Source: Candidatus Nanohalarchaeota archaeon (GTDB lineage: Archaea; Nanohalarchaeota; Nanosalinia; Nanosalinales; JAFCCC01). From it: a stretch of DNA of 64,000 nt. The notes beneath the pieces are model-generated. The model was not told the origin of the DNA. It saw nothing but the letters and a program-made list of their open reading frames with translations, and did not search any database. Made by a program: the position numbers and the translations under genes. The DNA lies in NCBI GenBank assembly GCA_017610385.1, contig JAFCCC010000001.1, forward strand, positions 94,960 through 158,959, in the 5' to 3' direction. Below are positions 12,356 to 34,700 of the stretch, one piece after another; positions within the stretch are counted from its first letter, which is position 1; every line of letters begins with the position of its first letter.

Positions 12356-13434
12356 GTGAGTGCAGTTATAAAAATATTCAACCAAATAAAAACAATGAAA
12401 AATGAGGAAATAAAAACTGTCGCGATAATCAATGAAGACTGTGTGGGCACGAGCAAGGGACGATATGCTATACAGATGGCGAAATTGCTTAATAAAAAAA
12501 TCAAAGTTAAACTTTTTCTAAGAGATACTGCACCATATAACTCCGAATTTGTTGTGAAAGTAAAAACATTTAAAACAAAGATAAGAATACTTGCCGGCCT
12601 AGGTTATTATATTCCTTTATTTTTTAAATTAAGAAAAGACAAATCTATTGACATTATTCACGCTCAAGATGATAAAACTGGTGCTTTTGCAATCGTTTTA
12701 AAAAAACCGCTAATAAGTACCTTTTGCGATGCTATTCCGTTCAACTTTAACTTCCCATTTAATTTTCAGGGGGTTGCACATCTTTTTACATAAAGCTAAA
12801 TCAATTGTAGTCATTTCGAACAGCACAGGAAATTTGTTGATAAAAAAATATTCATCACTCTCAAAAAAGGTTGTACCGATTCATCTTGGAGTAGATATAA
12901 ATAAATTTCAGCCGAGTGTCAAGAAAAATCCGGACCACCCAAACCTAGGAATATTGGGCAATTTGGATCAACAATTAGCAGCCGTTTTTGAAAGGATTTT
13001 GAAGGAATACAGAAAAAATGCGGGACTCGATCTTGCAGGAAAAGGTCTTTCTAAAAAATTCAGTCAATTCAACTGCATCCAGGAAATTATTTTTAAGGGT
13101 TTTGTAAAAAGAGTCAGAGCTTCCGAAACATTATCAAAACATTGATATTTTTGTATACAAAACAAATGTAGAATGATTTGGACTAATTCCATTAGAAGCT
13201 ATGGCGTGTGGGTGTGCGGTGGTTGCAATTAATGTGGACTCCTTACCAGAAGTAATTAAAGATGGTGGGTTGCTTGTAGAAAACACAGAAGATGCGTTTT
13301 ACAGTGCCATCAAAAGATTAATAGAAAATAAAAACCTCAGAGAAGAATATCAAAAGAAAGGACGAGAACGTGCTAAAAAATTAACTTGGGAAAATGTGCG
13401 AAGAAACATTTGGAACCTTATAAGAAAGTTTTAA
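12356..13434 (+). pseudogene. Glycosyltransferase GT4 broken by two frameshifts and a stop
   Basis: Three overlapping reading frames together make one GT4 enzyme. Segment 1 (12356-12793) has IINEDCVGTSKGRYA and SIDIIHAQDD. Segment 2 (12729-13145) has HKAKSIVVISNSTGN and VVPIHLGVDINKF. Segment 3 runs IDIFVYKTNVE, stop, FGLIPLEAMACG and on to RERAKKLTWENV. The frame changes near 12770-12790 and near 13100-13135. A TGA at 13174-13176 stands exactly where the EX7E motif should have Gly (EGFG). Segments start with ATG or GTG and none can be a full enzyme. It seems a recent loss, since each piece is well preserved. Confidence 0.85.
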
Positions 13435-13476: not shown

Positions 13477-14952
13477 TTATTTTCTGACCGGGGTAAATTT
13501 CCTGATCATTTCTTTGTCTTTTTTATCAAATCCTTTTAGTAAATACATTACCGAAAAATAAAGTACTATAGCTAAAAAAATAATTACAACCATCTTCATG
13601 ATTTTGGGTAAAGAAGTTTGTAAAATTAAAATGGTTGAAAAAGCCATAATCGCAGAAGAAATAATTGGCTTAAAAATGTAACTTAAGTTTAGTTTTATTT
13701 TTTTTCTTATAAACTTAATAGAAAGTAGGAATAATAATATAAGAGAAGTAACTGTGGCTATTGCGGCTCCATTAATACCCCATAACGGAATTAAGAAATA
13801 ATTCAGAATTACATTTAAAATTGCTGCAATGAATGTATACTTCATTATCTTTCTAGGCTCATTTATTCCTGCAATAAAGCTCCTAGAAATCACAATCAAA
13901 GAAGTGAAAATTGTTCCTATACTTAAAATTCTAAATGCGGGAACTGCTGCCAAGTATTCTGAAGTAAATAAAATCTGAATAATTGGTTTAGCTAATAAAA
14001 AAGATCCTGTGGCCGCTGGAAGAATGAAATAAATAGAATATTTTAATGATCGATTAAAAATCTCACCCAAACTTTTTTTATCTTTTTTTGCATTTAATTG
14101 AGAAATCATGGGAAATAATGCTACTGCTAATGCAGCCATTACCATACTTAGCAGACCTACGACAGGTAGAGCAACATTATAATAACCAACATCTTTCGCT
14201 GTTAAAAAATAACCTATAAAAAACGAATCAGTCCATCCTAAAAACGTTGCTGCAATCCCTGCCATAAAAAGTGGAACTCCAAAACTAAGTAGTTTTTTTG
14301 CTAAGTTAAACTCTGCTTTTTTGAAAATTATGGGTGTTGTGTGTTTGTAAGCTACAACAAGAAAAACGAACATCACAAAAAAACTCAAAGAATAAGCCCA
14401 AGTTGCTCCGAGAATCTTGAAACCTAAACTGAAAAATAAAATTGTAAGTAAAAACTTTGAACCTTTTTCAATTACACCAGAGAAAGAAAGAATTCCCATC
14501 TTTTGAAATCCTGTGAGTACTCCACTAAAAAGACCGCTAAATAAACTAAAAAATACTGCTAATGATCCGATTTTGAAAGGAATTACTGCTAAGGGATTAT
14601 GAAAAACATTTATTGCAAAAAAGCCTGAAAGAAAAAATAATAAAACTGAACCTAAAGTCGCTGTGAAAACGGTAATTGGTGCGGCAGTGGAAAAAATCGT
14701 ATGAATCTCTTTCTTTTGAGAAATGTATTCAGAAGTATATTTGGTTATTGCACTTGGAAGTCCTAAAGAAAAAAAGGTTGTAAAAAATCCGACCATCATT
14801 AAAACCAAAGAGAATACTCCATATTCTTCTGGTCCAAGACCTCTGGCTAAAATTATCTTATAAAAAAAAGAAATAAAATATCCTGCAAGTGAACCCATAA
14901 AAAGTAAGCTGGTCCCTTTGGCTATTTTTACAGTTAGGTTCTCTGGGTTCAT
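13477..14952 (-). CDS. Polysaccharide flippase (Wzx/MATE-like)
   Basis: This 491-residue polytopic membrane protein of the polysaccharide transporter/MOP superfamily has about 12-14 hydrophobic helices. The N-terminus (KIAKGTSLLFMGSLAGYFISFFYKIILARGLG) and EYGVFSLVLMMVGFF match Wzx-type flippases, and KYTSEYISQKK follows the first helix pair. It is expected to move lipid-linked oligosaccharides across the membrane, which suits a cluster making surface glycans. It is convergent with the broken GT gene on the other strand. Confidence 0.9.
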   Translation of the reverse strand: MNPENLTVKIAKGTSLLFMGSLAGYFISFFYKIILARGLGPEEYGVFSLVLMMVGFFTTFFSLGLPSAITKYTSEYISQKKEIHTIFSTAAPITVFTATLGSVLLFFLSGFFAINVFHNPLAVIPFKIGSLAVFFSLFSGLFSGVLTGFQKMGILSFSGVIEKGSKFLLTILFFSLGFKILGATWAYSLSFFVMFVFLVVAYKHTTPIIFKKAEFNLAKKLLSFGVPLFMAGIAATFLGWTDSFFIGYFLTAKDVGYYNVALPVVGLLSMVMAALAVALFPMISQLNAKKDKKSLGEIFNRSLKYSIYFILPAATGSFLLAKPIIQILFTSEYLAAVPAFRILSIGTIFTSLIVISRSFIAGINEPRKIMKYTFIAAILNVILNYFLIPLWGINGAAIATVTSLILLFLLSIKFIRKKIKLNLSYIFKPIISSAIMAFSTILILQTSLPKIMKMVVIIFLAIVLYFSVMYLLKGFDKKDKEMIRKFTPVRK

Positions 14953-15177: not shown

Positions 15178-15930
15178 ATGAGTATCAAACTGACCAATCA
15201 AAAAACGATTTTACCAAATGTTTTTGTAGTTGGCGCTACACGTTGTGGAACCACTTCTTTATATCAGTACCTGGGAGAACATCCAGAAATTTATAAGCCA
15301 CCTTATAAATGTGCGGAATTATTCCTTACAGAAAAAATAGATTACAAAAAAGCTCGATTACTCTATAATAAAAGTACAGACGCCCTACGCCTAGATTGTA
15401 GCCATTATTTTCATCTTGAATCTGCTGCTGAAAGAATAAAATCCGCGGTTCCTGATGCGAAAATAATCATTGGACTTAGGCCCGCTAAAGAATTGTTTCT
15501 TTCAAGTTATATTTATCGCCAAAATAAGGGAGAAATTCCTAAAAAGCTTACCTTTGAGGAGTACACACATACGTATATGGATAAAGGAAAGTGGTATGTA
15601 GTAGAACATTTAAAATATGACCGCAACATAAATTTTTGGATTTCTCGATTCGGGAAAAAAAATGTGTTAATATTTCAATTTGAAGAACTTGCTACTGACG
15701 CACCTCAACTATGTAAAAGAATCTTTAAATTTTTGGGGGTTGATAATACTTTTAGGCCACACATCTACCAATATAACAAACGTGATAGCAACATTCCCCG
15801 TACACGTTGGTTAAATAATTTCGTTAAAAGACTACCTCTAAGCTGGCGGCTAAGAGTTAAAGAGATGTTTCCAATCTTAGAAAAAATATATTCGGAAGTA
15901 ATTTATTCTAAAATGGAAAAAGCGGAATAG
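15178..15930 (+). CDS. PAPS-dependent sulfotransferase
   Basis: This 250-residue protein has the sulfotransferase P-loop-like 5'-phosphosulfate loop VGATRCGTTSLYQYLGEHPE. The 3'-phosphate region is around IIGLRPAKELFLSSYIYRQNKGE, followed by YDRNINFWISRFGKKNVLIFQFEEL, typical of carbohydrate sulfotransferases. It should move sulfate from PAPS to a glycan hydroxyl. It ends 5 bases from the convergent APS kinase gene, and the PAPS-making enzymes sit beside it, which supports a dedicated glycan sulfation module. An AT-rich promoter region precedes it (14953-15177). Confidence 0.9.
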   Translation: MSIKLTNQKTILPNVFVVGATRCGTTSLYQYLGEHPEIYKPPYKCAELFLTEKIDYKKARLLYNKSTDALRLDCSHYFHLESAAERIKSAVPDAKIIIGLRPAKELFLSSYIYRQNKGEIPKKLTFEEYTHTYMDKGKWYVVEHLKYDRNINFWISRFGKKNVLIFQFEELATDAPQLCKRIFKFLGVDNTFRPHIYQYNKRDSNIPRTRWLNNFVKRLPLSWRLRVKEMFPILEKIYSEVIYSKMEKAE

Positions 15931-15935
15931 ATTTT

Positions 15936-16460
15936 CTAGTAATTGCATTCCTTTAAAAATGAAATAATTTCAGTTACAGATTTGTTTGGTGCTTCTTCAT
16001 AAGTATTTACAATTATTTCTGGATTTGTGGGCGGTTCGTAAGGAACATTTTCTGAAACACCTATAAAGTTTTCAATTTCGCCCCCAAGGGCCCTTTTGTA
16101 AAGCCCCTTAATGTCTCTTTTAATGCAATATTTCAAAGAGCAGTTTACATAAACTTCTATAAATTCATCGCCCAACCTTTGCCTTGCAAATCTTCTAGAC
16201 ACTGCAAATGGAGAAATTATTGGAACTAATATGAAATCATAATTTTCTTTTTCTTTGGCACAAATTTCGGCAATGAGTCTGTTATTTTCTTTAATATCTT
16301 CTGGAGTAAATCCTAAATGTGTATGAAATTTCGATCTAACTACATCTCCGTCTAGTACAAGTGTTTTTTTGTGTTTTAGAAATGGGTGTTTTATCAAGGC
16401 ATTAGAAATTGTTGTTTTCCCTGATCCAGAAAGTCCGGTGAACCAAATTATTTTTCCCAT
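15936..16460 (-). CDS. cysC: Adenylylsulfate (APS) kinase
   Basis: This 174-residue kinase phosphorylates APS to PAPS with ATP, releasing ADP. The P-loop GLSGSGKTTISNAL is at residues 8-21, followed by LVLDGDVVRSKFHTHLGFTPEDIKENNRL, which contains the APS-binding DGDxxR and GF segments, then FIEVYVNCSLKYCIKRDIKGLYKRALGGEIENFIGV and YEPPTNPEI. All are standard for CysC. Its ATG overlaps the stop codon of the kinase-sulfurylase gene by one base (TAATG), so the two should be made together. Confidence 0.95.
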   Translation of the reverse strand: MGKIIWFTGLSGSGKTTISNALIKHPFLKHKKTLVLDGDVVRSKFHTHLGFTPEDIKENNRLIAEICAKEKENYDFILVPIISPFAVSRRFARQRLGDEFIEVYVNCSLKYCIKRDIKGLYKRALGGEIENFIGVSENVPYEPPTNPEIIVNTYEEAPNKSVTEIISFLKECNY

Positions 16461-18652
16461 TACAAATCACTTACAAAAACTTTTTCCCCTGTGTTAATCT
16501 TGTTTATAATCAATTGAGAGATTTCTGGTCTCATAAACCATTCAGGGGGTTTTTTTCCTTGCATCAATAGTTTTCTAGCATGAGTTCCTGAAATGTGTTT
16601 TTTTTGAGTCTCAGGGTGATCTAAATAATCATCTTCATGTATGTGTTTGTTTTCCAATGTTGAATAAAATACCTTGTTATATTTTATAGGAATAATTCCT
16701 ATTTCCTCTTTTCCAAATTGGTCAAATATTTTGTGAGATGCCTGCGGATCATAGTAATTTTTAACTCCTGTGTGATCTCTGCCTACAATAAAGTGACTGC
16801 ATCCAAAATTTTTTCGAACTAATGCAGTAAAGACCGCTTCTCTCGGTCCTGCGTATCGAGAATATGAAGAAAATGTTGAAAAAATTACCTTACCTTTCGG
16901 ATAAATTTCGTTTATCATTTTTTCATAAGTTGTAATTATGGCACTTGCCTCAAAATCACCCTTTTTCTTTTTTCCTATAATGGGGTGAACAAATAGACCA
17001 TCACACAAAAATTTCTTCATGGCATCCATTTGAATAAACTCATGAGATCTATGAATAACATTTCTAGTATGAAACGCAACAATTTTACTCCATCCTCTCT
17101 CAGAAAAAATTCTTCTAATTTGTCTGGGTGTTAAATTATATAACTGAAAACCATTGTTTCTTCTTTTAATTAGATCTATTTTTCCTGCTAAAAAATACTG
17201 CCCCGAATCAAAAAAAGTTTTAACTCCAGGGTGATTCAAATCAGTTGTTCCAAACCATTTTTTTGCTGTGTCTTGCATATTTACTTGATAAATTTGTTCT
17301 AAATGTAATAGTGCGTGCGGTTGAGAATCCTTGTTATAAACAAGTAAAACATCTTGACCGTCCTGTAAGCCCTCGATGGTTTTAGTCTGTAATATTATTG
17401 GCATAGGCCACACAACACCGTTTTTAAGTCTCATTGTGTGCAAAACAGACATTAGATTTTCTTTATTCATAAAACCTTCTAAAGGGCTAAATGCTCCACA
17501 GGCAATTTGTTCAACATCCATAAGATTTGTTTCATCAATGCTAATTTTTGGCATTGTGAGCATTTGTTGTGAATCAAATCCTTTTTTTATATATCTCTCA
17601 ATTAGTTTGCCTCCGTGGGGTGGCACCAACAAATTGTCTGTAGTATCTGTTATATTGAATTCCGATAAATCTTTGTTTTTATCAAATTCACGTATTAGTG
17701 CAGAAAGCATATTCAAAGTTTCTATGGGATAGTTCCCGATTGCAGTCTCTTTTGTTAGAACAAATCCTGTTGCACCGTCAAATAAAGTATTTATGACATC
17801 GTTAACTTCTGATTTTGAGGGTTTACGACATACAGACATATTTTCAAGGGTATTCGTAGCAACATAAACTTCTTTATTCAATTCATTTGCTTTTTTTAAA
17901 ATGCTTTTTTGAACAAAGGGTAGTTTCTGCAAAGGTACTTCTCTGCTTAAATCTCCTCGATCTATTAAAATTCCTTCAGAAAACTCTAAAAGCTCTTCTA
18001 AATTCTCGAGAGCTTCTCTGGTTTCAATTTTGGTTAAAAATGTTGCATCACAATATAATTTCTGAAATTCCAGAAGATCTTTTTTATTATGAATGAAAGA
18101 AAGACTAAATTGTTTTACTCCGAGTTTTTTTGCGAGTTCTATTGCAAATCTGTCTTTTTCACTAAAGGTTGGAGCATCTAACTTTGGTTCTAAATGAGCT
18201 CCTTTTTGTCCACCAATCTTACCGCCCAATAAAACAGTACCTTCTACAAAACCTTCATGAATTGTTGAGGTGTTACTTATTTTAATTAATGCGGAATTAA
18301 AATCAAGGGAAATCAGTGTCCCTTCTTCAAGTTGTTCAACAACAGTTAAAGGTCTCAGAAAAAATGTTTTGTTGTCTGTCTCTACTTCTCGATTGTATAT
18401 TCGAATTTTATCTCCTTCTTCGAAAGTGATTTCATGGACATTTCCTGTCCGTATTTGGCGCCCTTCTGTATCTAACATAATTGGTACACCATATGTTTTT
18501 AATTCTATAATTTTCTTTTCAATGTCTTCTTTAGAGGTATGAGACAAATTTATGCGAAAATAATCTACAGATCTATCTTTTAATTTCTTGAGAACTTCGG
18601 GGTTAAATGATGCTTCTCCAATTGTAGCAATTATTTTTATGTTCTTAATCAT
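16460..18652 (-). CDS. Pyruvate kinase-ATP sulfurylase fusion
   Basis: One uninterrupted protein joins two enzymes. Residue numbers here count from the upstream ATG at 18673. Residues 8-335 are a pyruvate kinase catalytic core: IIATIGEAS, FRINLSHTS, LDTEGRQIRTG, catalytic Lys215 in LTKIE, Asp241 in RGD, VATNTLENM and KETAIGNYP. The pyruvate kinase C-terminal regulatory domain is missing. Residues 345-737 are ATP sulfurylase: VPPHGGKLI, FHTRNVIHRSHE (534-545), GRDHTGVKNYYD (631-642) and SGTHARKLL with RPE. The sulfurylase makes APS from sulfate and ATP; the kinase half could remake ATP from PEP and the ADP released by the adjacent APS kinase. The ATG at 18652 is preferred because it gives the family N-terminus (MIKNIKIIATIG) and lies about 27 bases from a TATA-like ATTTAAAAAT. 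Confidence 0.92.
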   Translation of the reverse strand: MIKNIKIIATIGEASFNPEVLKKLKDRSVDYFRINLSHTSKEDIEKKIIELKTYGVPIMLDTEGRQIRTGNVHEITFEEGDKIRIYNREVETDNKTFFLRPLTVVEQLEEGTLISLDFNSALIKISNTSTIHEGFVEGTVLLGGKIGGQKGAHLEPKLDAPTFSEKDRFAIELAKKLGVKQFSLSFIHNKKDLLEFQKLYCDATFLTKIETREALENLEELLEFSEGILIDRGDLSREVPLQKLPFVQKSILKKANELNKEVYVATNTLENMSVCRKPSKSEVNDVINTLFDGATGFVLTKETAIGNYPIETLNMLSALIREFDKNKDLSEFNITDTTDNLLVPPHGGKLIERYIKKGFDSQQMLTMPKISIDETNLMDVEQIACGAFSPLEGFMNKENLMSVLHTMRLKNGVVWPMPIILQTKTIEGLQDGQDVLLVYNKDSQPHALLHLEQIYQVNMQDTAKKWFGTTDLNHPGVKTFFDSGQYFLAGKIDLIKRRNNGFQLYNLTPRQIRRIFSERGWSKIVAFHTRNVIHRSHEFIQMDAMKKFLCDGLFVHPIIGKKKKGDFEASAIITTYEKMINEIYPKGKVIFSTFSSYSRYAGPREAVFTALVRKNFGCSHFIVGRDHTGVKNYYDPQASHKIFDQFGKEEIGIIPIKYNKVFYSTLENKHIHEDDYLDHPETQKKHISGTHARKLLMQGKKPPEWFMRPEISQLIINKINTGEKVFVSDL

Positions 18653-18815
18653 AATTATCTCATGTGCATTCATTTTTAAATAATTATAAAATGGTGGTGT
18701 CTTTTTTGGTTCTTAAACTGTCTATTGCAGTAGAGGCTGGCTTATAAAAATGAAAACGCCAGTAGATTCTTCGCACATTAATAAATTATTTAAACATTCA
18801 TTCTAATTTCAAACT

Positions 18816-19270: not shown

Positions 19271-20299
19271 ATGATTATCCAAAAATATCATTATTTTGGA
19301 GAATTTGGGGGATTAATTTTTGTGGTTTTGGGCGGATTAGAAAATTTTTTTAATCTTTATCCCTCTGTAAAATTAGAAATTTGCACGTATAGAAACTATG
19401 GAATATTATTAGAACATCTGTTTCCAAAAAATGTAAGAGCCACCACAATAAAGTGGAATTTTAAAGATAATTTGAGAATAGGTTATGAATATGCAGATAG
19501 AGATTTTATAAATAATTTACATAAGAAAGGATATTTAAAAAATGTTATTGTTCTTTTTAAACAATTTTCTAATGATAAAATGGCTGTAAAATGTTTTAAT
19601 AATCTATGTTTTAACGTATTTGATAAAGATGATGCGATATATTTCAGATTAAAAAAACCTATTACCTATGGGAAAAAGTCTTCTCGTCCAAAATACATAA
19701 GCATTTTCCCAAGATTTCGGAAATTGGATAGTAAAAGAAATATTAGTAAAAAAGATTGGGAATACATACTTAAAATTCTAAAATCTTATTATAAAAATTA
19801 TAAAATTGTCGTTCATGGCTCAAATAACGAATTTTTAAAATTGAATATTGATGATGCAATTTATCCTAAAAATATTTTAGAACAAATTTATTATTTGAAT
19901 AATTCCCGCGTATGTGTTAGCCCTAATTCTGGGTTTGCACATTTTGCAGTATATTGCAAATGTCCTCTACTTGTTATCGGTATGGGCTATTGGGAATACG
20001 AAGACATAAATCCTTTTAAAGTTCCTATAAAAATAACAGACGTAAAACACGTACGAAACTCTAATGTTTTGAGAAATTTCCTTGATAAAGTTGAAAATAC
20101 AAAAGATAATTCAGAAATCAGAAAATCTTTTTATGATTTTTTATGGATTCATTATAGACAATCAAAGCGTATTGTAGGTACTTTTCTAAAGTATTATATC
20201 CCAAAAGCTTATTATTTGCTTCGGGGTCCAGATAGTTTTGATTCATATTCTGCAAAGTTAAAGAAGCAGATTTTTGACGGAATTCAAGGACGAGAGTAA
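19271..20299 (+). CDS. GT9-like glycosyltransferase family protein (paralogue 1)
   Basis: This 342-residue protein has a GT-B-like C-terminal half with KIVVHGSNNEF, LEQIYYLNNSRVCVSPNSGFAHFAVYCKCPLLVIG, which resembles the donor-site segment of heptosyltransferases (GT9). The N-terminal YFGEFGGLIFVVLGGLENFF is shared with the gene at 23004-23927, as are ISIFPRFRKLD, the YPKNILEQI region and NPFKVPI, so the two are paralogues. The pair flanks two fused sugar-activation enzymes. Glycosyl transfer is inferred from the fold only. Confidence 0.65.
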   Translation: MIIQKYHYFGEFGGLIFVVLGGLENFFNLYPSVKLEICTYRNYGILLEHLFPKNVRATTIKWNFKDNLRIGYEYADRDFINNLHKKGYLKNVIVLFKQFSNDKMAVKCFNNLCFNVFDKDDAIYFRLKKPITYGKKSSRPKYISIFPRFRKLDSKRNISKKDWEYILKILKSYYKNYKIVVHGSNNEFLKLNIDDAIYPKNILEQIYYLNNSRVCVSPNSGFAHFAVYCKCPLLVIGMGYWEYEDINPFKVPIKITDVKHVRNSNVLRNFLDKVENTKDNSEIRKSFYDFLWIHYRQSKRIVGTFLKYYIPKAYYLLRGPDSFDSYSAKLKKQIFDGIQGRE

Positions 20300-20354: not shown

Positions 20355-21929
20355 ATGATGAGAACATTAATAATTCCGGCAGCAGGCCATAATCTTCGTA
20401 TGAAAGAATATTACTTTCCAAAATGCTTATTGCCAGTACATCAAAGACCGATTTTATTTCGAATTATCCATTCTTGGAAAAAGTTTATTGATCAAGTAAT
20501 TATTGTGGTTAATAAACAAAATCACGAAATGATCAAAGAATATATGGATAAGTATTTTACCCTAACAAATATTTCGGTTGAGTATTGCGTTCAAACTAGA
20601 AATGGGGGGACGTACTTTGCAGTTAAGCTCGCGTTAGAAAAAGCGAAAAATGATCAAGTAATCTTGAATTGGTCTGATGTATGCCTAACGAAACCTTCTA
20701 AATTAAATGCGTTTATGGATATTGAAGAGAAAAACTTGATTTTTACTACAGATAAAGTAAGATGCCGTTGGAAGTTTGATGACCAAAAATTTATTCAGGA
20801 TGAAAGTTATATTAGTTTAGATGATGGCATATTCGGCGTTTTTGTAATGAATAAAGTAAATGGAACTTTCTTAAAAAACATATCTGAAAAAGACAAAGAA
20901 GTTGAAATTTTGGAGGCTATGGACTCCAGTTCCTGCCTCAAAATAGACTTTGAAGATTTTGAGGACATAGGCGATCCAAAGAAGTACGGGTTGAATGTGC
21001 GTGGAGCCCAACAGAACGTTAGGGCTTTTGGATCACATAGCAAAATATACCAAAATAAGTCCTTTGTTATCAAAAAAAATAGTGATCCAAAACTTCAAGT
21101 TAATGAAATTAACTGGTATAAAAATAGTAATTTTTCATTTACGCCGAAAGTATACAGCTATGAGCCATTAATTTTACAAAAACTCCCTGCGGCCCCCATC
21201 GCAGAAAAACTCACCGAAGCAAATGAAGTTTTTGAAACAGAGGTAATATCCAATTTATTTGATATAGTTCAAGAAATTCATAACTTCAAAGAGCCTGTAG
21301 ACGCCAAAAATGATGATTCGTATGAACAATACATTGGAAAAACGATTAAAAGATTGGAAAAAATTAATTTTCTGTTTAAAGAATTTAATCAAAGTTCCTT
21401 CAAGATTAACGGTATTTTATGCAAGAATCCTCTGACACTACTAAAGGAAAAGGAGGAAGATATTAAATCTCAATTTACTAGAGAATTTAGATTCATTCAT
21501 GGAGATCTCCAAACATCAAATGTATTAATAGACAATAATAAGTCACTTTATGTGATAGATCCGAGAGGTTATTTCGGAAATAACCGACTTTACGGTGATC
21601 CTGCATACGACTTTGCTAAAATGTATTATGGGTTCTGTGGGGGGTATCATACATTTAGTAAAGGAAATAATCAATTCATTATACAGAATGGTGGGTTCGA
21701 AATTTTGCCGTTAATTCCAAAAACCATTGTAGAAAGAAGACGAAAAACATATATGAAGCTGCTTAAGAACATAAATTATAATAATATAACAGAAAGGAAG
21801 ATTGATTTATTACACGCCATAATTTGGATTTCTGTAGCAGAATATACTTCAAATGACGTTCTTAGTGCCATGTATGCTTATTTAAAAGGAACTTTACTAT
21901 TAAATCAATATTTCGGAGGTTTGAAATGA
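20355..21929 (+). CDS. Nucleotidyltransferase-kinase fusion
   Basis: This 524-residue protein has two parts. Residues 1-215 are an NTP-transferase with a modified signature (IPAAGHNLRMKEYYFPKCLLPV, then VQTRNGGTYFAVKLAL and LNWSDV). Residues 225-524 are an aminoglycoside phosphotransferase/choline kinase-type kinase, with the Brenner motif FIHGDLQTSNVLID and the metal-binding DPRGYFG. It could phosphorylate and then activate the same small molecule or sugar. It overlaps the next gene by 4 bases (ATGA), so both are probably translated together. The substrate is unknown. Confidence 0.82.
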   Translation: MMRTLIIPAAGHNLRMKEYYFPKCLLPVHQRPILFRIIHSWKKFIDQVIIVVNKQNHEMIKEYMDKYFTLTNISVEYCVQTRNGGTYFAVKLALEKAKNDQVILNWSDVCLTKPSKLNAFMDIEEKNLIFTTDKVRCRWKFDDQKFIQDESYISLDDGIFGVFVMNKVNGTFLKNISEKDKEVEILEAMDSSSCLKIDFEDFEDIGDPKKYGLNVRGAQQNVRAFGSHSKIYQNKSFVIKKNSDPKLQVNEINWYKNSNFSFTPKVYSYEPLILQKLPAAPIAEKLTEANEVFETEVISNLFDIVQEIHNFKEPVDAKNDDSYEQYIGKTIKRLEKINFLFKEFNQSSFKINGILCKNPLTLLKEKEEDIKSQFTREFRFIHGDLQTSNVLIDNNKSLYVIDPRGYFGNNRLYGDPAYDFAKMYYGFCGGYHTFSKGNNQFIIQNGGFEILPLIPKTIVERRRKTYMKLLKNINYNNITERKIDLLHAIIWISVAEYTSNDVLSAMYAYLKGTLLLNQYFGGLK

Positions 21930-23014
21930 ATCAAGAATTTGACTGGTTAATATCTGACGTAGATGGTATTCTAACAGATGGCGGTCATTATTATACTGCA
22001 GAGGGAAAGCTTATGAAAAAATTTGGAAGTAATGATAAAGATGCCCTAAAGAAACTAAATGAATTATATGTTAAAGAAATTGTTTTTATTACTGCAGACA
22101 AATTAGGTTACTCCATTTCCTGCAAGAGAATTAAGCGAGATTGGGGTCTTAATTTGAAGTTGATACCGATAGATAAAAGAAATGATTTTTTTAAGCAATT
22201 AAAAGGCAAAAAAATCTATATCGGGGATGGAATTCATGATGCGGAAGATTTCGAAGGAATAGATTTGTCTTTTGCTTTAAATAATTCTACACCGCAAGCA
22301 AAGAAAAACGCTTCAGTGGTTTTAGACACATCTAGCGGAAATAACGTATTTCCATACCTTTTAGAATTCTTGGGTCGCCGAAAGTTAAAAATTGAAAAAC
22401 CTACTGAGTCTGAAGAAACCTTAGACGCTTCTGAATTATATAGGATGTTAAAACAAATCAATTTGATTCCAGAAAAACGACAAGAAATTAATAGATTTTG
22501 TAATTCTATTAAAAATAGTTATACCGAAAAAAACAAAATTGTTTTGTGTGGTGTCGGGAAAAACGCGCTTCTAGCGAATTTAATTTGTGAATTTTTATAT
22601 CCATATAACATTACGTCAGTAGTTTTAGATCCGCATAGGGCGTTGCATGGAAATTTAGGTCTTCTAGAAAAAGACGACATATTAATTATGACTTCTAAAA
22701 GTGGTAATACTGCAGAATTAGTTCACTTGATGAAATGTCTTCAAAATAAGGGAGATATCGAAAATAAATTTTTACTTACATGTAATAAAGACTGTGAACT
22801 GGCGAAATACGATATAAAATGTATCCTTTCTGTCCCTGTATCTGATGAAGTTTCGCGATTTAATCATTCTCCTCAGACAACTTTCGTGGTTTTTGCAATT
22901 ATTTTATTTTTGGTGGTAAATGCTTTAGCAAATACAAAAGAAATGACTCAGATAGATTATTTGTTGAATCACCAAGCAGGAGAAATCGGAAAGGTTTTAC
23001 GCAATGAAAGATAA
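21926..23014 (+). CDS. KdsC-like phosphatase fused to KdsD-like sugar isomerase
   Basis: Residues 1-155 form a HAD phosphatase of the KdsC type: DVDGILTDGGHYY (catalytic Asp pair), FITADK and IGDGIHDAEDF. Residues 165-362 form a SIS domain of the KdsD/GutQ arabinose-5-phosphate isomerase type: VLCGVGKNALLANLI, DPHRALHGNLGLLEKDDILIMTSKSGNTAEL. No Kdo-8-phosphate synthase or CMP-Kdo synthase is seen nearby, so Kdo is not proven. The isomerase and phosphatase may act on a pentose or heptose phosphate for the adjoining kinase and nucleotidyltransferase. It overlaps both neighbours. Confidence 0.85.
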   Translation: MNQEFDWLISDVDGILTDGGHYYTAEGKLMKKFGSNDKDALKKLNELYVKEIVFITADKLGYSISCKRIKRDWGLNLKLIPIDKRNDFFKQLKGKKIYIGDGIHDAEDFEGIDLSFALNNSTPQAKKNASVVLDTSSGNNVFPYLLEFLGRRKLKIEKPTESEETLDASELYRMLKQINLIPEKRQEINRFCNSIKNSYTEKNKIVLCGVGKNALLANLICEFLYPYNITSVVLDPHRALHGNLGLLEKDDILIMTSKSGNTAELVHLMKCLQNKGDIENKFLLTCNKDCELAKYDIKCILSVPVSDEVSRFNHSPQTTFVVFAIILFLVVNALANTKEMTQIDYLLNHQAGEIGKVLRNER

Positions 23015-23927
23015 ATACTGCTATTTTGGAGAATTTGGATATTTGCATATGGAGCTTTTAGGCAGTTTAGAGAAATACTTTACACAAAACCCTAAAAAGA
23101 AACTTGAATTATGCACTTATTTACAGTATGGCCAATTATTATCGTATTTATTTCCCGAGAATTTGATTATTTCAACCATTTCTTGGGACTTTAACGAGCG
23201 ATTTAGATGTGGACACCAATATACTGAACAACACTTCCAAGAGCAATTACAAAGGGGGGGTTATACTAAAAACCTCATTAATTTTTTACGAGAAAATGTG
23301 AATTGTGATGAGCGTGCTAAAGGCTGTTTTGCAAATAGGTTTTTGAGTTCTGTATTAAATGTTAGAATCCATTTTATTTCTAAAGCATTAACGTATGGAA
23401 AAGCAAAGAAAAAACAATATCTCAGCATTTTTCCGAGACTCCGAAATTTAGATGCTTATCGAAATCTGGATCAAAAAACTTGGAAAACAATAATTGATTA
23501 TCTTTTAGAAACATATCCTTACAAAATCGTAGTTCATGGAGCTGAATCAGAATTTATGAAATTTGACAATCCTCGCTTAGTATACCCAAAATCGCCGTTA
23601 GAACAAATTAAATATTTTAATGAATCTTTTGTTTGTATTACAACAACATCGGGTATAGCACAGTTTGCGGCGAATTGTGCGTGCGATGTACTAATTCTAG
23701 ATAAATTCTATGGATTAGTTCAAGATTTTAATCCTTTTAATAGAATAATCACGATGTGTAATCCAAAACAGTTGTTAGAAACAACACTATTAGAAAAAGT
23801 AATTCATCTGAGTACTGTGGAAGAAAGTGGAACGCAATTCCGAGAATCTCTCAAAAATAGGTTCTGGTACAATCAAATGAGATACAAAGTTCTTGTAGGT
23901 AATAAACTACAGAAACTTATGAAGTAA
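23004..23927 (+). CDS. GT9-like glycosyltransferase family protein (paralogue 2)
   Basis: This 307-residue protein is a paralogue of the 19271-20299 product, sharing YFGEFGYLHMELLGSLE, LCTYLQYGQLLSYLFP, SIFPRLRNLDAYRN, KIVVHGAESEF, YPKSPLEQIKYFNES and the TTTSGIAQFAANCACDVLIL segment corresponding to the GT9 donor site. It overlaps the preceding gene by 11 bases, so it is translated from the same operon. Probably transfers the sugar made by the fused enzymes beside it. That is inferred from context. Confidence 0.65.
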   Translation: MKDKYCYFGEFGYLHMELLGSLEKYFTQNPKKKLELCTYLQYGQLLSYLFPENLIISTISWDFNERFRCGHQYTEQHFQEQLQRGGYTKNLINFLRENVNCDERAKGCFANRFLSSVLNVRIHFISKALTYGKAKKKQYLSIFPRLRNLDAYRNLDQKTWKTIIDYLLETYPYKIVVHGAESEFMKFDNPRLVYPKSPLEQIKYFNESFVCITTTSGIAQFAANCACDVLILDKFYGLVQDFNPFNRIITMCNPKQLLETTLLEKVIHLSTVEESGTQFRESLKNRFWYNQMRYKVLVGNKLQKLMK

Positions 23928-24989: not shown

Positions 24990-25661
24990 TCATTTCTCTA
25001 AAATGTAAATTCCTCCAAAATTTTTGATTATCTTAAAATTTGTACGTGAAAGTAGATCTTGAAGTTCTATATGAGAATATCTTGAAACAGTAACCAAAAA
25101 ACCACATCCGCCAAAAGTACGATAAATTTTAGAAGTCAACAACCACAATGCGGAATGTAATCTATGCTTCATGGAAGGCGCTTTTAGTGCAAACTGCACC
25201 GCACAACGTCCGTTTTGAGCAAGATTCTGATAAAATTTTTCCAAAGTTCGTAAAGACAAATAGGCTGGCAAATGATAAAAAGTCTCAAGACAAATAATTG
25301 CATCTACTGGTTGTTCTAACTTCAATTCGGACAAATCTTGCAAAATAAGACGATAATTTTTAAAATTATGATTTTTTAATACCGTGTCTGCTTTTTTTAA
25401 GGCGGTAGGAGACACATCAACACCCAAAACTCTGTAATTTAAACCAAGAAGCTGAGTTGCAATTCGCGCCAAGGGACCGATTCCAGCATCAAGAATTGCG
25501 CCATCTTGTTTGATTTTGGGTAAAATTTCCTTTTTTATGATTTCTATATCTGAATCCGTATGCATCTGAATAACCTTGGCGCTCGCAGTCTTTCCTAAAA
25601 CTACGTGTTCTGATCGTTGTTTTTTTGACTTTTCTTCCCACACTGTAGAATACCATTTCAC
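24990..25661 (-). CDS. Class I SAM-dependent methyltransferase
   Basis: This 223-residue protein has motif I AILDAGIGPLARIATQLLG, the acidic VLGVDVSPTALKKAD segment, LILQDLSEL, and post-motif LETFYHLP. A C-terminal helical part follows. Its ATG overlaps the aglB stop by 4 bases, so it is translated with the oligosaccharyltransferase. It may methylate the glycan, its lipid carrier or a protein. Which one cannot be told from the sequence. Confidence 0.8.
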   Translation of the reverse strand: MKWYSTVWEEKSKKQRSEHVVLGKTASAKVIQMHTDSDIEIIKKEILPKIKQDGAILDAGIGPLARIATQLLGLNYRVLGVDVSPTALKKADTVLKNHNFKNYRLILQDLSELKLEQPVDAIICLETFYHLPAYLSLRTLEKFYQNLAQNGRCAVQFALKAPSMKHRLHSALWLLTSKIYRTFGGCGFLVTVSRYSHIELQDLLSRTNFKIIKNFGGIYILEK

Positions 25662-28165
25662 CCCGAATCCACCTCGTAAGTTAGAATCTTCCAGATTTTT
25701 ACAAATCCGTTATCAAAAACTTTTTCAAATTCTGGCATTTCGTTTCCGTCTCTTAAATACAATTTGACTAAATTTGCATTAACAGATTCTTTAGGAACAT
25801 AAACCAAACCAGACATTCCATAGTATGGATCAAAATGAGGACAGCCGGGAATTGTTGGCGAGTCCTCAGGAACTGCGAACTTTTTTATCCCATTTTTCGA
25901 ACAAAAAGTACTAAAATGTGCTGTGTTTCCTGCATAATCTCTGAAAATTGGTGCAGCAGTAACAGTTAAAGATGTATTTGAAATCAAAACAGGGATAAAA
26001 ATCTTTGGAGAATTTGTTACACAGTTTGCACCCGATTTAACACAATAAGTTAGGTACGTTTTTCCTTCTGATTGTGCTTGTTTTTCAAACTGAAAATTTT
26101 GTAAAACAGTATACTTAGAATTATTTCTATTGTGAATTTGAGTAACCGCAGAATATTTTCCAATCATAGTATAATCTAATACAATATAATTAACTCCAAA
26201 ATCCTTAAGCCACCCCAACCACGAATCATATTCCTGGTCACTAAAAAAATCAGCTAGTCTTTCATGAATTAAGTCTCCATTATCAAAAGTGTATGTGTTT
26301 CCACCCCCATCTGCGAATGCAGGTCTAGAGCCTATAACTTCAAACCAGTATCCATAATCCCACCAAGATAAAACAGTAGAATTTGCGGGCGTTTCAAGTC
26401 TTAAGTAATCTAAACTTTCCATCCATGCTTTGTTAGGAGAACCACCAATTCCCTTCGCCATAGAGTCTGCATTAACTATATTGATTCTAATGGTTGGGAT
26501 TAATATTAATGTCAAAATAATTAAAAAAACCCCAATTTTTGCATAATTTGCTTTAATTGATTTAATTTGTTTAGAGATAAACTCTCCGAGTTGAGTTATC
26601 AGTAGTGAATTTTTAATCTCAGTAATTAACATAACAAAGCCGTATCCTGCAAAGAATGCAACCGGCTGAGCAGTCAAGAAAATAATTCTTGCTTTTTGGG
26701 CTGACCCGTATAAAGCAGACAATAACCACAACAAAAGCAAGATATAATACCACTTAAACTCAATTTTACGAGTAATTTTTTCTGAATTAAACAAGGAAAG
26801 CAAAATAATGCTCGTAATCATTATTATAAGATATGGAGTAAAAATTAAGCTGAAGTTCTGAACTGTGATATTTTTCATGAGCATAAATAACATTAAAATC
26901 AATGCAAACATGGAAGCGAAGCTTATTCCATAAACCGTCCTCGCAGAAACTTCATCTTTCTTTTTAAATTTGCGATAAAACATTAATAAAATCAATGTTC
27001 CCATCACTGTTAAGCCAACTAAAGCAAAAGTCCAAGGACTAAAATATTCTGAAAATTTAGATAAAAATGAAGATAAATGTGCTTTTGCTCCAAAAGCGCC
27101 TAACTGACTTACAGTTTGCATCGCAGATGCAGGATTATTCTCCGCAACCGTGTTTCCAACAACTCCTGACGTTGAACGACTTTGTGACGCCAGACGAATT
27201 AATCCAGTAGTATATTTAGACATGTTTTGAGAAAATAATGGCATTAAAAGAAGTATGAAAAGACCAATTACACATAAAACAGGAATGAGATAGGGTAATT
27301 TTTTCTTGGAAACCCCTTTGTATTTGCCCGCGAGGTATCTTATCCAAATTAAACCTAAAATGCCCATAGAAGCTAAAAATAAGGAACTAGGAATTCTAAA
27401 TGACCCACTACTCAAAGCAAATGCCAAGAAATTCCCTATTAATAATGTTGGAGTAAAGGCGCAAACCAGTGCTTCTGTGTCTTCATTAAACAATAAAACA
27501 ATGAATGCTGTAAGCGGATACAATAAAAATAAGTGTTGTGTTCCCCCCCAGGAAGTCATTGAAATCGCTAAAAAGATTCCAGAAAGAATTCCTGCGCCCC
27601 AGGATTTTCTCTTCCATGCACGAACAATAAAATAAATTGATAAAAGCATTAAAACGCCTGCAATAGCTTCTTTTTCAAACCAGCCAGCAGAAGATCTGTG
27701 TAAAACCGCCGCAGAGGTGGCTAAGAAAAAAGAAGAAGAAAGACCGACCCATTTATTAGAAACTTCTTTGCCAATAAAATACATTACAACAACCATTAAA
27801 GCCCCCATTAATGCTGGATAAATTTGGGTCCAGCTTAAAAAATCAATATTTGTCAACCAATTGAAAAATTTAAACAAATACGCAGGAATTGCACTTTCTC
27901 CTGCGAAAAAACCAAAGGAAGTTGGAGCAGAATATGGAAAAGACCTTAAAAAATCTACAACTGGAACTGCGCCATATTTAACAATACTATAACTCATTTT
28001 AGAAATCTGATAAGGGTCCAAAGCCTGAAGATATTGTATAGATTTTAAAGGAATCAGTCGAATCTTCATTGCAAGGTAAAAGATTAATAATAATAATGCT
28101 GGCGGGAGCGCTTTCCAAAACGTGTTCTTTACCCAACGCCATTTCACCTTTTGAATAAAGTTCAT
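25658..28165 (-). CDS. aglB: Oligosaccharyltransferase AglB (STT3 family)
   Basis: This protein of about 835 residues moves the lipid-linked glycan to asparagine. The N-terminal half is a run of hydrophobic helices with the DPYQ-type acidic motif in the first loop (QALDPYQISKMSY). The hallmark WWDYG is at residues 601-605, in VLSWWDYGYWFEV. A soluble periplasmic-facing domain follows. The frame is open to an ATG at 28243, but the ATG at 28165 gives the STT3-like start MNFIQKVKW and is 30 bases from a TTTAAA box. The longer form would overlap the divergent gene. Confidence 0.92.
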   Translation of the reverse strand: MNFIQKVKWRWVKNTFWKALPPALLLLIFYLAMKIRLIPLKSIQYLQALDPYQISKMSYSIVKYGAVPVVDFLRSFPYSAPTSFGFFAGESAIPAYLFKFFNWLTNIDFLSWTQIYPALMGALMVVVMYFIGKEVSNKWVGLSSSFFLATSAAVLHRSSAGWFEKEAIAGVLMLLSIYFIVRAWKRKSWGAGILSGIFLAISMTSWGGTQHLFLLYPLTAFIVLLFNEDTEALVCAFTPTLLIGNFLAFALSSGSFRIPSSLFLASMGILGLIWIRYLAGKYKGVSKKKLPYLIPVLCVIGLFILLLMPLFSQNMSKYTTGLIRLASQSRSTSGVVGNTVAENNPASAMQTVSQLGAFGAKAHLSSFLSKFSEYFSPWTFALVGLTVMGTLILLMFYRKFKKKDEVSARTVYGISFASMFALILMLFMLMKNITVQNFSLIFTPYLIIMITSIILLSLFNSEKITRKIEFKWYYILLLLWLLSALYGSAQKARIIFLTAQPVAFFAGYGFVMLITEIKNSLLITQLGEFISKQIKSIKANYAKIGVFLIILTLILIPTIRINIVNADSMAKGIGGSPNKAWMESLDYLRLETPANSTVLSWWDYGYWFEVIGSRPAFADGGGNTYTFDNGDLIHERLADFFSDQEYDSWLGWLKDFGVNYIVLDYTMIGKYSAVTQIHNRNNSKYTVLQNFQFEKQAQSEGKTYLTYCVKSGANCVTNSPKIFIPVLISNTSLTVTAAPIFRDYAGNTAHFSTFCSKNGIKKFAVPEDSPTIPGCPHFDPYYGMSGLVYVPKESVNANLVKLYLRDGNEMPEFEKVFDNGFVKIWKILTYEVDSG

Positions 28166-28192
28166 AAGCATAATTTCAAATTGGAAGTTAAG

Positions 28193-28198
28193 TTTAAA
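28193..28198. promoter_or_regulatory. Shared TATA box between two divergent leaderless genes
   Basis: The palindromic hexamer TTTAAA is centred at 28195.5. The plus-strand ATG (28226) and the minus-strand ATG (28165) are each exactly 30.5 bases from its centre. A TATA box this distance upstream supports a transcript starting at or near the start codon. Because TTTAAA reads the same both ways, one box could fire in both directions. This geometry also decides the aglB start. Confidence 0.6.
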
Positions 28199-28225
28199 TG
28201 CTTTCATTAAGTTGTTAATAAAAAG

Positions 28226-28696
28226 ATGACAAAAACGAATCAAATTACTAAAAAGAAAAATGAACTTTTAACTTTCTTAAACAAGTTCGATAAAAATTAT
28301 TTATATTTAGGATTAACAATTGCCATTATTCTTTTAATTATGATAATTCATACTGCAAAAATTGAAAACAATTCGTTCTCTTTTGGTTTTTGTAATTATA
28401 GCATAAGTTGTTCTGGAATTTCATTAGGTAATGTATGTTTAGGAGGCAAAGTGAAAAGTGTTTCTTGTATAAATCCTGAAAATTATACAGAAGAATATAG
28501 AATGGTAGAAATGAATTGCGCGTTAGAAGCAAATGCTATCTGTAAATCTCCAGAGGTTGAAGATTTTGAATGGATTAATTCTTCAGAATATAACGGGAAA
28601 AATTGTCAAGAGTGGAAAGCAATTTATCCAAAGATAACTTTAATAAGTTGTAATCAAACCTTTGCAGATATAACTCAGTATTCCTTATTGCGGTGA
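28226..28696 (+). CDS. Single-pass membrane protein of unknown function
   Basis: This 156-residue protein has one transmembrane segment (YLYLGLTIAIILLIMIIHTA, residues 26-45) after a basic N-terminus (TNQITKKKNELL). A Cys-rich external part follows, with CNYSISCSGIS, NVCLGGKVKSVSC, MNCALEANAIC, KNCQEW and SCNQTF. The even spacing suggests disulfides. It is 10 bases before secF, so it may be co-transcribed with the export genes. I recognise no family. Confidence 0.6.
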   Translation: MTKTNQITKKKNELLTFLNKFDKNYLYLGLTIAIILLIMIIHTAKIENNSFSFGFCNYSISCSGISLGNVCLGGKVKSVSCINPENYTEEYRMVEMNCALEANAICKSPEVEDFEWINSSEYNGKNCQEWKAIYPKITLISCNQTFADITQYSLLR

Positions 28697-31710: not shown

Positions 31711-31734
31711 CTAAAAAAGAAAGATAATTTGGAA

Positions 31735-34700
31735 ATGACTGATGTTTCTCAGGAAGTTCAATTGGAAGAAAAAGTGGTTAAATCACGTAAAAAGCTTGAT
31801 ATGAGCTCTTATTTTAAATATATAGAAGATAAAACTAAAGAAGCCTATGAAATGGCCAAAAAAGCAAGAGCAAGTGGGAAGGACCCTGAAAAATACGTGG
31901 ATATTCCTAGAGCACGAGATTTAGCTGAGAAATCAGTTGGCTTGGTTACAAGTGTTTTATTTCCAGAATTAGGTGGCATTGGTATTGATGATCGGGTAAG
32001 AGAATTAGAAAAAGAATACGGTAAAAACGATGAGCGAGTGGCGTTTGTTATAGGGAAAGAAATTGCTCAAGGAAAATTTTACAAGTTTGAAACTTTAGAA
32101 AAAGCAGTTGAAGCAGGAATTAGAATTGGGTTGTCTTATTTAACCCAAGGCGTTGTAACTGCCCCATTGGAAGGAATCGGTGCAATTAAAATAAGAAAAA
32201 ATGATGATGGAACAGATTATTTGGCAGTTTATTATGCAGGTCCAATTAGAAGCGCGGGAGGAACGGCTTCTGCAATGAGTGTTCTTTTAGCAGATTATGT
32301 AAGAAAAGAAATGGGAATTGATAGATACAAACCACGTCCCGAAGAATTAGAACGGTATGGTGTAGAAGTAGAGGATTATTACACTCGAGTTACTAAAAAA
32401 CAATATACTCCCACTAGAGAAGAAGTAAAAATGATTGCTAAGAATGTTCCAATTGAAATTACTGGAACACCTACTGAAAAAATTGAGGTTTCTAATTTCA
32501 AAGACCTGGCACGTATTGAAACAAATGTTGTACGTGGAGGAATGTGTTTAGTATATTTGGATGGTTTGCCACTCAAGGCACCCAAAATTAAAAAGAGAGT
32601 TAATGCGTGGGGAAAAGATTTTGGTTTAGAACATTGGAACTGGATTAAAGACTATTTAAAATTCCAGGAAAGTTTGCATAGCGTAACTAAAGGCCAAACA
32701 GAGGTCAAATATAAACCAAACACCACATACTTACAAGATTTAGTTGCTGGTAGACCTGTATTTGCGCACCCAGGAGCTGTGGGTGGATTTAGATTAAGAT
32801 ATGGTCATTCTAGAACGTCTGGAATCGCTGCAACAAGCATGCATCCTGCCACAATGGAAATTACAAATGGGTTTATCGCAATAGGAACACAAGTTAGGAC
32901 AGAATATCCGGGAAAGGCCACAGTTCCGACTCCTTGTGATTCAATAGAACCGCCTGTAGTAAAACTAAAAAATGGGAATGTCTTGCGCGTTGAGACCCGA
33001 AAAATGGCCAAAGAAATAAATAGTGAAGTTAAAGAAATCTTAAGTTTGGGTGATACATTAATTCCTTACGGGGAATTTTTAAATAATGGAAAAAAATTGC
33101 TTCCGAGTGGGTATGTAGAAGAGTGGTGGGCTCAGGAAGTTAGAAAAGTTCTAAAAGAAAGAGAAATTCCGTCAGAGCAATTACATGGTTATATTACAAA
33201 ACCATATCCAAAACCAAGCGTTGAAATAGCATTCACAATATCTGAAAAACTTGGTGTCCCATTACATCCATATTACACTTATTGGTGGCACTATATCATT
33301 CCTGAAGAATTTATGAGACTTTATAGAGTTTTAAGAACTATGCAAGATAATAAATTGCCAAACACGCCAGGAGTAAAGGCGGTTTTGGAGAAGCTTCTAG
33401 TTTGTCATACTATTGAAAATGAACAGATTGTTTTAGAGGAAACATCTGTTAAAATATTCACAAAATTATTAGATTTAAAAAATGATCATGAAGCCCAGTT
33501 TAGTAAAAGTGAGTCGTTCTTACAAACAATGGAACAAATTTCTAATATTAAAATGAGGAACAAAGCTCCAACCTTTTTAGGTTCAAGAATGGGGCGCCCA
33601 GAAAAATCTGAAAAAAGGATGATGAAAGGCAGACCTCAATTATTATTTCCTTGTGGGAAAAAAGAGGGTGGGCGAATGAGAAATCTGATGTCAACATACG
33701 AAATTGGTTATGTAAATGAGGATTTTTTAATGAATTATTGTCCGTCATGCAACAAAAACGTGCCTTATTTTTATTGCCCATATTGCAATGGTCCTGTTGA
33801 AGAACTACGTGTATGCTCAGTTTGTGGAAAAACAACAAAAGAAAAGAAACATTGTGGAAAACCTACAAAACGTCATGGTGTTGAGCGCGTAAATGTGCGT
33901 GAATTAATGGACATTGCAAAGAAAAACTTGGGTTTTAGAGTGCTTCCGGAACTTTTAAAGTCGCCTAGGGCCACTATGTCTAAACATAATGAAGTAGAAC
34001 CAATTGAAAAGGGATTATTAAGACAAAAATATGGGTTATTTGTAAATAAAGACGGAACAATTAGATTTGATTCTACAGATCTGGCAATGACCCATTTTAA
34101 GCCAAAAGAGGTTCATGTTTCTATTGACAAATTAAAGGAATTAGGATATACAGAAGATATTAATGAAAAACCATTAACAAATGAAGAGCAGATTCTGCTT
34201 CTAAAACCTCAAGATATTGTAATTACAGATGCCAAAGAATTCTCTGCTGCAGATTACCTATATAGAATTTCTAAGTTTGTAGACGAATTATTAGTTAGTT
34301 TCTATGGACAAAAACCATTTTACAATTTTAAAAATAAATATGATGTTGTGGGTCAACTAGTGCTTGCATTGGCGCCGCATACGTCAGCTGCGATTATGGC
34401 ACGGGTTATTGGATTTACTTCTGCAAGAGGCACTTTCGGTAATCCGTATTGGCATTGTGCAAAACGAAGGAATTGTGTTCCAGGAAATACTAAAGTACTT
34501 TTTGAAAATTCAAATAGAGCATATACGAAATCTCTTGAAAGTATATATAACTCCTCTATCGCTGCAATAAACTATGAAGAAGGTGGTGTTGAGTTTAAAG
34601 AAGTCGAAAATAAGCGTGCCATTTGTTTTGATTTGAATAAAAAGCAAAAAAAGAGGAAAATATTGAAAATATTGAAAATTCCTGCGCCAGAACACAAAAT

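Follow-up and report, generated by a model that had tools for sequence, protein, structure and literature searches.

The stretch of DNA analyzed here (the window, 64,000 nucleotides of a Candidatus Nanohalarchaeota archaeon genome, contig JAFCCC010000001.1, positions 94,960 to 158,959) encodes a protein in which a pyruvate kinase (PK) is fused to a complete ATP sulfurylase (ATPS). We propose, with a probability of roughly 60%, that this protein is a sulfate-activating bifunctional enzyme with a built-in regenerator that makes ATP from phosphoenolpyruvate (PEP) and thereby removes ADP. The computational evidence comprises the fusion itself, its folds and conserved catalytic residues, its recurrence across genomes, its linkage to adenosine 5'-phosphosulfate (APS) kinase and sulfotransferase genes, and the placement of the PK half in a distinct PK subfamily.

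In the proposed scheme, the C-terminal half would convert ATP and sulfate to APS, the neighboring APS kinase (APSK) would convert APS to 3'-phosphoadenosine 5'-phosphosulfate (PAPS) with release of ADP, and the sulfotransferase would spend PAPS on sulfating a cell-surface glycan. The N-terminal PK half, predicted to be catalytically competent, would turn PEP and the local ADP into ATP, supplying both the ATPS and the APSK steps; local consumption of this ATP and a sulfated glycan as the end product are both inferred. Removal of ADP would also prevent the APS-ADP dead-end complex of APSK and the binding of ADP to ATPS. Rebinding of APS to APSK ahead of ADP release inhibits this enzyme, and ATPS, too, can hold ADP (PMC3734648). 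In a published in vitro cascade, PAPS was practically missing without a PK system and rose strongly with one (PMC9885120). The features of the fusion are as follows (positions are those of the window).

16460–18673, minus strand: PK-ATPS fusion protein of 737 codons (730 if counted from 18652, the probable start)
17717–18646, minus strand: PK barrel plus B domain (PF00224); the PK C-terminal domain is absent (Pfam; VIA-align)
18443–18472, minus strand: DTEGRQIRTG motif with Glu63 and Gln66 (rabbit positions 114 and 117), the subfamily signature (alignments)
18029–18031, minus strand: catalytic Lys208 of the KIE motif (alignment to solved pyruvate kinases)
17951–17953, minus strand: Mg ligand Asp234 of the DRGDLSRE motif (alignments)
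17855–17857, minus strand: catalytic-site Thr266 of the VATN motif (alignments)
17624–17716, minus strand: linker between PK and ATPS (Pfam domain borders; lower pLDDT around residues 331–340)
17162–17623, minus strand: ATPS N-terminal PUA-like domain (PF14306; Pfam)
16505–17140, minus strand: ATPS catalytic domain (PF01747) with HTRN, HRSH and GRDH motifs (Pfam; structure match; motifs)

The fusion occupies a single stop-free frame both in the window and in the source genome. Two in-frame ATGs are possible (18673 and 18652); relatives begin at the equivalent of 18652, from which residues are numbered here. As a preliminary description of this DNA had claimed, one protein joins a PK core to a complete ATPS, with three Pfam domains far above their cut-offs: the PK barrel (residues 10–319, 189 bits, cut-off 30), PUA_2 (residues 351–504, 153 bits, cut-off 27) and ATP-sulfurylase (residues 512–723, 254 bits, cut-off 24). 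The NCBIfam ATPS models NF003166 (424.5 vs. a cut-off of 387) and TIGR00339 (359 vs. 323) are also exceeded. The PK half falls below the TIGR01064 cut-off (226 vs. 306 bits), with the match ending at profile position 344 of 476; low scores to NCBIfam PK models are expected because the PK C-terminal domain, which the same description had noted as missing, is indeed absent. An AlphaFold2 model of the 730 residues, built from an alignment of 41 fusions (mean pLDDT 92.5, pTM 0.87), likewise has no third PK domain and is predicted to run from a helix (309–325) through the linker into the ATPS. By VIA-align, the ATPS half matches the Methanothermococcus ATP sulfurylase 8a8g (Z 50 over 378 residues, rmsd 1.8) and the PK half matches many solved pyruvate kinases (Z about 35–37 over 307–332 residues), so that both folds are complete in the predicted model.

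A missing-base error joining two genes, named earlier as one finding that would overturn the fusion, or any other sequencing or assembly error of this kind, is refuted: isolates and bins alike contain independent homologues in one piece, tens of them in all (37–58% identity; 54–58% in Pacearchaeota and about 40% in rhizobia), and nothing speaks in favor of such an error.

Catalytic motifs are intact in both halves, as had been described: LTKIE, RGD, VATNT, HTRN, HRSH, GRDH and GRQIRTG are all present. Across the 41 aligned fusions, R33, R68, K150, E210, D234 and T266 of the PK half and N531, H534 and H537 of the ATPS half are invariant, and the catalytic K208 is kept in 40, the exception being a Glu in locus L045. 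The PK half belongs to a distinct PK subfamily, with the diagnostic sequences DTEGxQ(I/V)RTG (Glu63, Gln66), DRGDLSRE, VATN and EVND in place of the canonical DTKGPEIR, ARGDLGVE, TATQ and EVSD. Close to the sites for the nucleotide and the monovalent cation, the whole subfamily shows the changes K114E, E117Q, Q to N after the catalytic Thr, and DDG to DFN in the B domain.

Rabbit position 117 carries Glu in K+-dependent PKs and Lys in K+-independent PKs, the two classes being T113/K114/E117/T120 and L113/Q114/K117/(L,I,V)120 (PMC8835810, PMC4374775). The Gln reported earlier at this site (Gln66 of the fusion) is real and conserved in 40 of the 41 fusions, but Gln alone does not predict K+ independence. 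The fusion has T/E/Q/T at positions 113/114/117/120, which matches neither class, and Gln117 also occurs in some Crenarchaeota PKs of the K+-independent branch. The K+ need of the fusion is not predictable, because its Gln117 occurs with the Thr113 and Thr120 of the K+-dependent class.

For phylogenetic placement, we used canonical archaeal PKs as the outgroup, a narrow choice, and deep nodes are weak. All subfamily members form one group (support 100/100), in which the window PK groups with those of Pacearchaeota and Woesearchaeota. PK-APSK fusions are nested among Omnitrophota PK-ATPS fusions, and lone PKs of Thermoplasmatota are nested inside the fusion clade; given this nesting, the ATPS part seems to have been lost secondarily in both.

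The fusion is widely distributed. In a translated plasmid search, megaplasmids of Ensifer adhaerens and Sinorhizobium chiapasense proved to encode relatives that are full-length and in one piece (39–40% identity over 96–97% of the query). When the PK halves of three fusions were used to scan 84,980 genomes, at least 70 loci emerged, a lower bound since the scan relied on two exact short peptides. Adding the window and both plasmids brought the set analyzed to 73 loci. PK is fused to ATPS in 50 of these, forms a PK-ATPS-APSK triple fusion in three (L044, L045, L047) and is fused to APSK without ATPS in two (L065, L106). In the remaining 18 PK is a lone domain, directly preceding an APSK-type gene in five (L096–L099, L101), directly following a sulfotransferase in L104 and cut by the contig end in L095; the others are of Thermoplasmatota type (L046, L048, L053, L054, L059, L061, L062, L064, L067, L070, L107). 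Archaeal hosts include Pacearchaeota and Woesearchaeota (DPANN) and Thermoplasmatota. Bacterial hosts include Omnitrophota, Planctomycetota, Gemmatimonadota, KSB1, Acidobacteriota, Myxococcota, many rhizobia, gammaproteobacteria, Methyloversatilis, Magnetococcales and one SAR11 single cell. These bacterial members rule out an archaea-only origin, and the fusion is not an archaeal specialty. Viral spread was also rejected: two scans of viral contigs yielded no relative, and phage matches were ordinary PK barrels (about 30% identity).

Sulfate activation is the constant across the partners of the subfamily PK (ATPS, ATPS-APSK, APSK, or an adjacent APSK-type gene), and a supplier of ATP to the pathway fits this range of partners better than a regulator of one enzyme. 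In the window, the partner genes and glycan-related genes are the following.

15936–16460, minus strand: APSK, whose start overlaps the fusion stop by one base
15178–15930, plus strand: sulfotransferase, convergent with APSK across a 5-base gap
13477–14952, minus strand: polysaccharide flippase family protein, glycan context (Pfam)
25658–28243, minus strand: STT3-type oligosaccharyltransferase, glycan context (domain search)

The previously noted arrangement of APSK and sulfotransferase agrees with both the coordinates and the family models. The fusion stop and the APSK ATG have one base in common (TAATG); the APSK passes TIGR00455 (169.9 vs. 138.7) and its gene adjoins the ATPS gene, and the sulfotransferase passes PF00685 (57 vs. 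22). The surrounding genes encode the flippase and the oligosaccharyltransferase, along with glycosyltransferases, nucleotidyltransferases and a phosphatase/isomerase fusion of Kdo type, and from them the setting is read as cell-surface glycan synthesis, in line with the glycan module described before. Scans for sigma-70 promoters and terminators performed no better than on shuffled sequence.

Across the loci, APSK is fused to or directly downstream of the subfamily PK gene in 36 of 62 loci (the 11 Thermoplasmatota-type loci left out; 35 from an automated count, plus the window, added by hand because of its strand). On the Ensifer/Sinorhizobium megaplasmids, APSK follows the fusion after about 25 bases, and a candidate Wzy-like polymerase gene, judged by eye only, lies a few genes away. 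At least one sulfotransferase candidate was found in 30 of 73 loci, a rough figure from a home-made profile with a loose threshold, a few of whose matches are too broad. Among 88 nearby proteins of a non-rhizobial sample, APSK (11) and Sulfotransfer_3 (11) were the commonest families, followed by CDP-alcohol phosphatidyltransferase (10) and then glycosyltransferases. APSK and sulfotransferase are thus not always adjacent to the fusion; the flanks of L039, L040 and L042, for example, contain a sulfotransferase candidate and no APSK gene.

A PF00224 search of 36 host genomes found a canonical PK besides the subfamily PK in most bacteria (including rhizobia, Planctomycetota and Methyloversatilis) and in six of seven Thermoplasmatota-type genomes, and a general housekeeping role for the fusion was rejected on this basis. 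That these hosts have retained the fusion although their glycolysis can do without it speaks for a function in sulfate activation. No PK beyond the fusion was found in the window genome, in its eight DPANN relatives, in three of four Omnitrophota, or in the Magnetococcales, SAR11 and Acidobacteria genomes, and in DPANN the fusion could serve both glycolysis and sulfate activation. The window genome (788 kb, 18 contigs, 93.5% complete) yielded no second PK, ATPS or APSK. No PAPS reductase scored above cut-off in this genome or its eight DPANN relatives, which suggests that PAPS there is made for sulfation and not for sulfur assimilation.

Several observations weigh against a PEP-driven regenerator. 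Active-site neighbor positions of the PK half are unlike those of glycolytic PKs in several places, and ADP may not be the acceptor. The 11 Thermoplasmatota-type loci have a lone subfamily PK away from both ATPS and APSK. Among Pacearchaeota with the fusion, no APSK was detected in three genomes (G029, G031, G032) and a fourth (G028) has only a weak match; either the bins miss APSK or PK serves ATPS alone, and unless the bins are incomplete the three genomes have no obvious source of ADP, since no APSK was seen. The supply of PEP is a further difficulty: the window genome, at its 93.5% completeness, has no match to enolase and no PEP-utilizers_C domain, so no complete PEP synthase, its sole PPDK_N protein being 660 residues long and lacking that domain. 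PEP might come from a host, from enzymes encoded in the missing 6.5% of the genome or from another enzyme. The idea of PEP-paid ADP recycling, already put forward in the preliminary description, gains from the PKs that are fused or adjacent to APSK without ATPS and loses, for this organism, from the lack of matches to PEP-forming enzymes. Separately, the Kdo-type genes of the window would themselves need PEP, yet the same genome lacks these matches. One triple fusion (L045: 7998–10793), with Glu for the catalytic Lys, perhaps contains a dead PK.

The PK-like half could instead be a sensor that binds PEP or a nucleotide and regulates ATPS. We consider this unlikely: fungal ATP sulfurylase, with its regulatory APS-kinase-like domain, provides a precedent (PMC2275785), loss of the C-terminal domain may leave a PK weakly active, and L045 has lost the catalytic Lys, but near-invariance of the catalytic residues across archaea and bacteria speaks against it, as does the joining of PK to APSK where ATPS is absent, which shows that the PK is not bound to regulating one partner. 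Somewhat less probable again is a subfamily that passes the PEP phosphate to an acceptor other than ADP, e.g., a precursor of the glycan or a different nucleotide from the sulfation cycle. The substitutions K114E, E117Q, Q to N and DDG to DFN would fit such a change, as would the coexistence of the lone Thermoplasmatota gene with a canonical PK elsewhere in the genome; against it, the residues that hold phosphate and PEP (R33, R68, K150, K208, E210, D234, T266) are unchanged and the neighbors common to the clades suggest no new acceptor.

For the window organism and other DPANN, the lack of any other PK raises a further explanation, that the fusion is simply the sole glycolytic PK parked on ATPS with no functional coupling. 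This seems very improbable, given that rhizobia, Planctomycetota, Methyloversatilis and other hosts have the fusion as well as a canonical PK of its own gene, and that the window genome has no enolase match. A PEP-to-ATP regenerator within a sulfate-activating enzyme is thus the reading that we prefer. In its broader form, for which we would put the odds at about even, a dedicated PK subfamily spread by gene transfer across many bacterial and archaeal phyla would use PEP to drive the sulfation of polymers on the cell surface. ATP would be formed, and ADP consumed, within the sulfate-activating enzyme itself, perhaps with channeling from one active site to another and with an unusual cation dependence.

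Other features of the loci are recorded here. In the window, two similar-looking proteins with no Pfam or NCBIfam match (19271–20299 and 23004–23927) flank a nucleotidyltransferase-kinase fusion (20355–21929) and a KdsC-like phosphatase/KpsF-like isomerase fusion (21926–23014). Two overlapping open reading frames in different frames (12356–13145) look like one frameshift-broken glycosyltransferase, and a DNA polymerase II large subunit (DP2; 31729–36672) is interrupted by an intein in which a LAGLIDADG domain and, weakly, a helix-turn-helix are matched. The CDP-alcohol phosphatidyltransferase family occurs near the fusion at L039, L043, L047, L058, L060, L065, L082, L106 and others. Beside the triple fusion of L047 (2627–7877) are a 1515-aa protein with cytidylyltransferase, PEP-utilizing/PPDK_N and NTP-transferase domains and a peptidase C26 gene, a set that resembles the one known for O-methyl phosphoramidate synthesis in Campylobacter; similar partial sets occur at L098, L056 and L063. 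The window APSK was considered as a phosphoramidate-type kinase and rejected, since it passes the APS kinase model, whereas L056 contains a second APSK, which passes the model of another subfamily. In marine gammaproteobacteria, the PK and APSK genes are followed by one for a 546–548-aa protein that Pfam does not match (L096: 9506–11152, with equivalents in L097, L098 and L099).

Sulfate activation is a textbook unfavorable reaction, for which the known solutions are GTP hydrolysis, pyrophosphatase and APSK coupling; CysN, for instance, drives APS formation by GTP hydrolysis. If our proposal is true, PEP-driven sulfate activation is a further natural solution, mirroring the enzyme mixes of biocatalysis laboratories, and the fusion is a ready-made enzyme for PAPS production. 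Its sequence also offers a marker by which sulfated glycans can be sought in archaea and bacteria that are uncultured, and it is an example of a glycolytic enzyme recruited to a single biosynthetic step. The preliminary description was aware of no report of such a fusion, and we found no mention of PK-ATPS or PK-APSK fusions in the open-license PMC literature (subscription papers and preprints were outside its scope); PK is unmentioned in a paper on ATPS fusions (PMC2275785).

Among known systems, PAPS synthases and ATPS-APSK fusions (human PAPSS1/2, Aquifex 2gks, PRK05537) also place ATPS on one chain with a second sulfate-activation enzyme, and L044, L045 and L047 resemble them in having APSK on that chain. 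The added enzyme here is, however, an N-terminal PK, and the window APSK is a separate open reading frame, so the window protein is not itself a PAPS synthase. In the ATPS-pyrophosphatase fusions of diatoms, haptophytes and oomycetes (PMC2275785, PMC3734648), an accessory enzyme on the same chain likewise pulls the unfavorable reaction via a by-product, but pyrophosphatase removes pyrophosphate, whereas PK would remove ADP, return ATP and spend PEP. CysD/CysN and CysNC similarly couple a second energy source to APS formation; they belong to a different protein family and hydrolyze GTP, while the window ATPS is of the unrelated Sat type and PEP would take the place of GTP. In vitro PAPS synthesis (PMC9885120) combines ATPS, APSK, PK with PEP, and sulfotransferase, as an engineered mixture with commercial PK and not as a natural fusion. 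Glycolytic PKs (PykF/PykA, PKM; TIGR01064) have the same barrel, B domain and PEP-side catalytic residues, and differ from the subfamily in their C-terminal domain, in Lys/Glu or Gln/Lys where it has Glu114/Gln117, in ARGDLGVE for DRGDLSRE and TATQ for VATN, and in scoring above the family cut-off that the PK half misses. In concept the protein is related to the ATPS-APSK fusions, the ATPS-pyrophosphatase fusions and CysN, and its new element is the accessory enzyme that is fused to sulfate activation.

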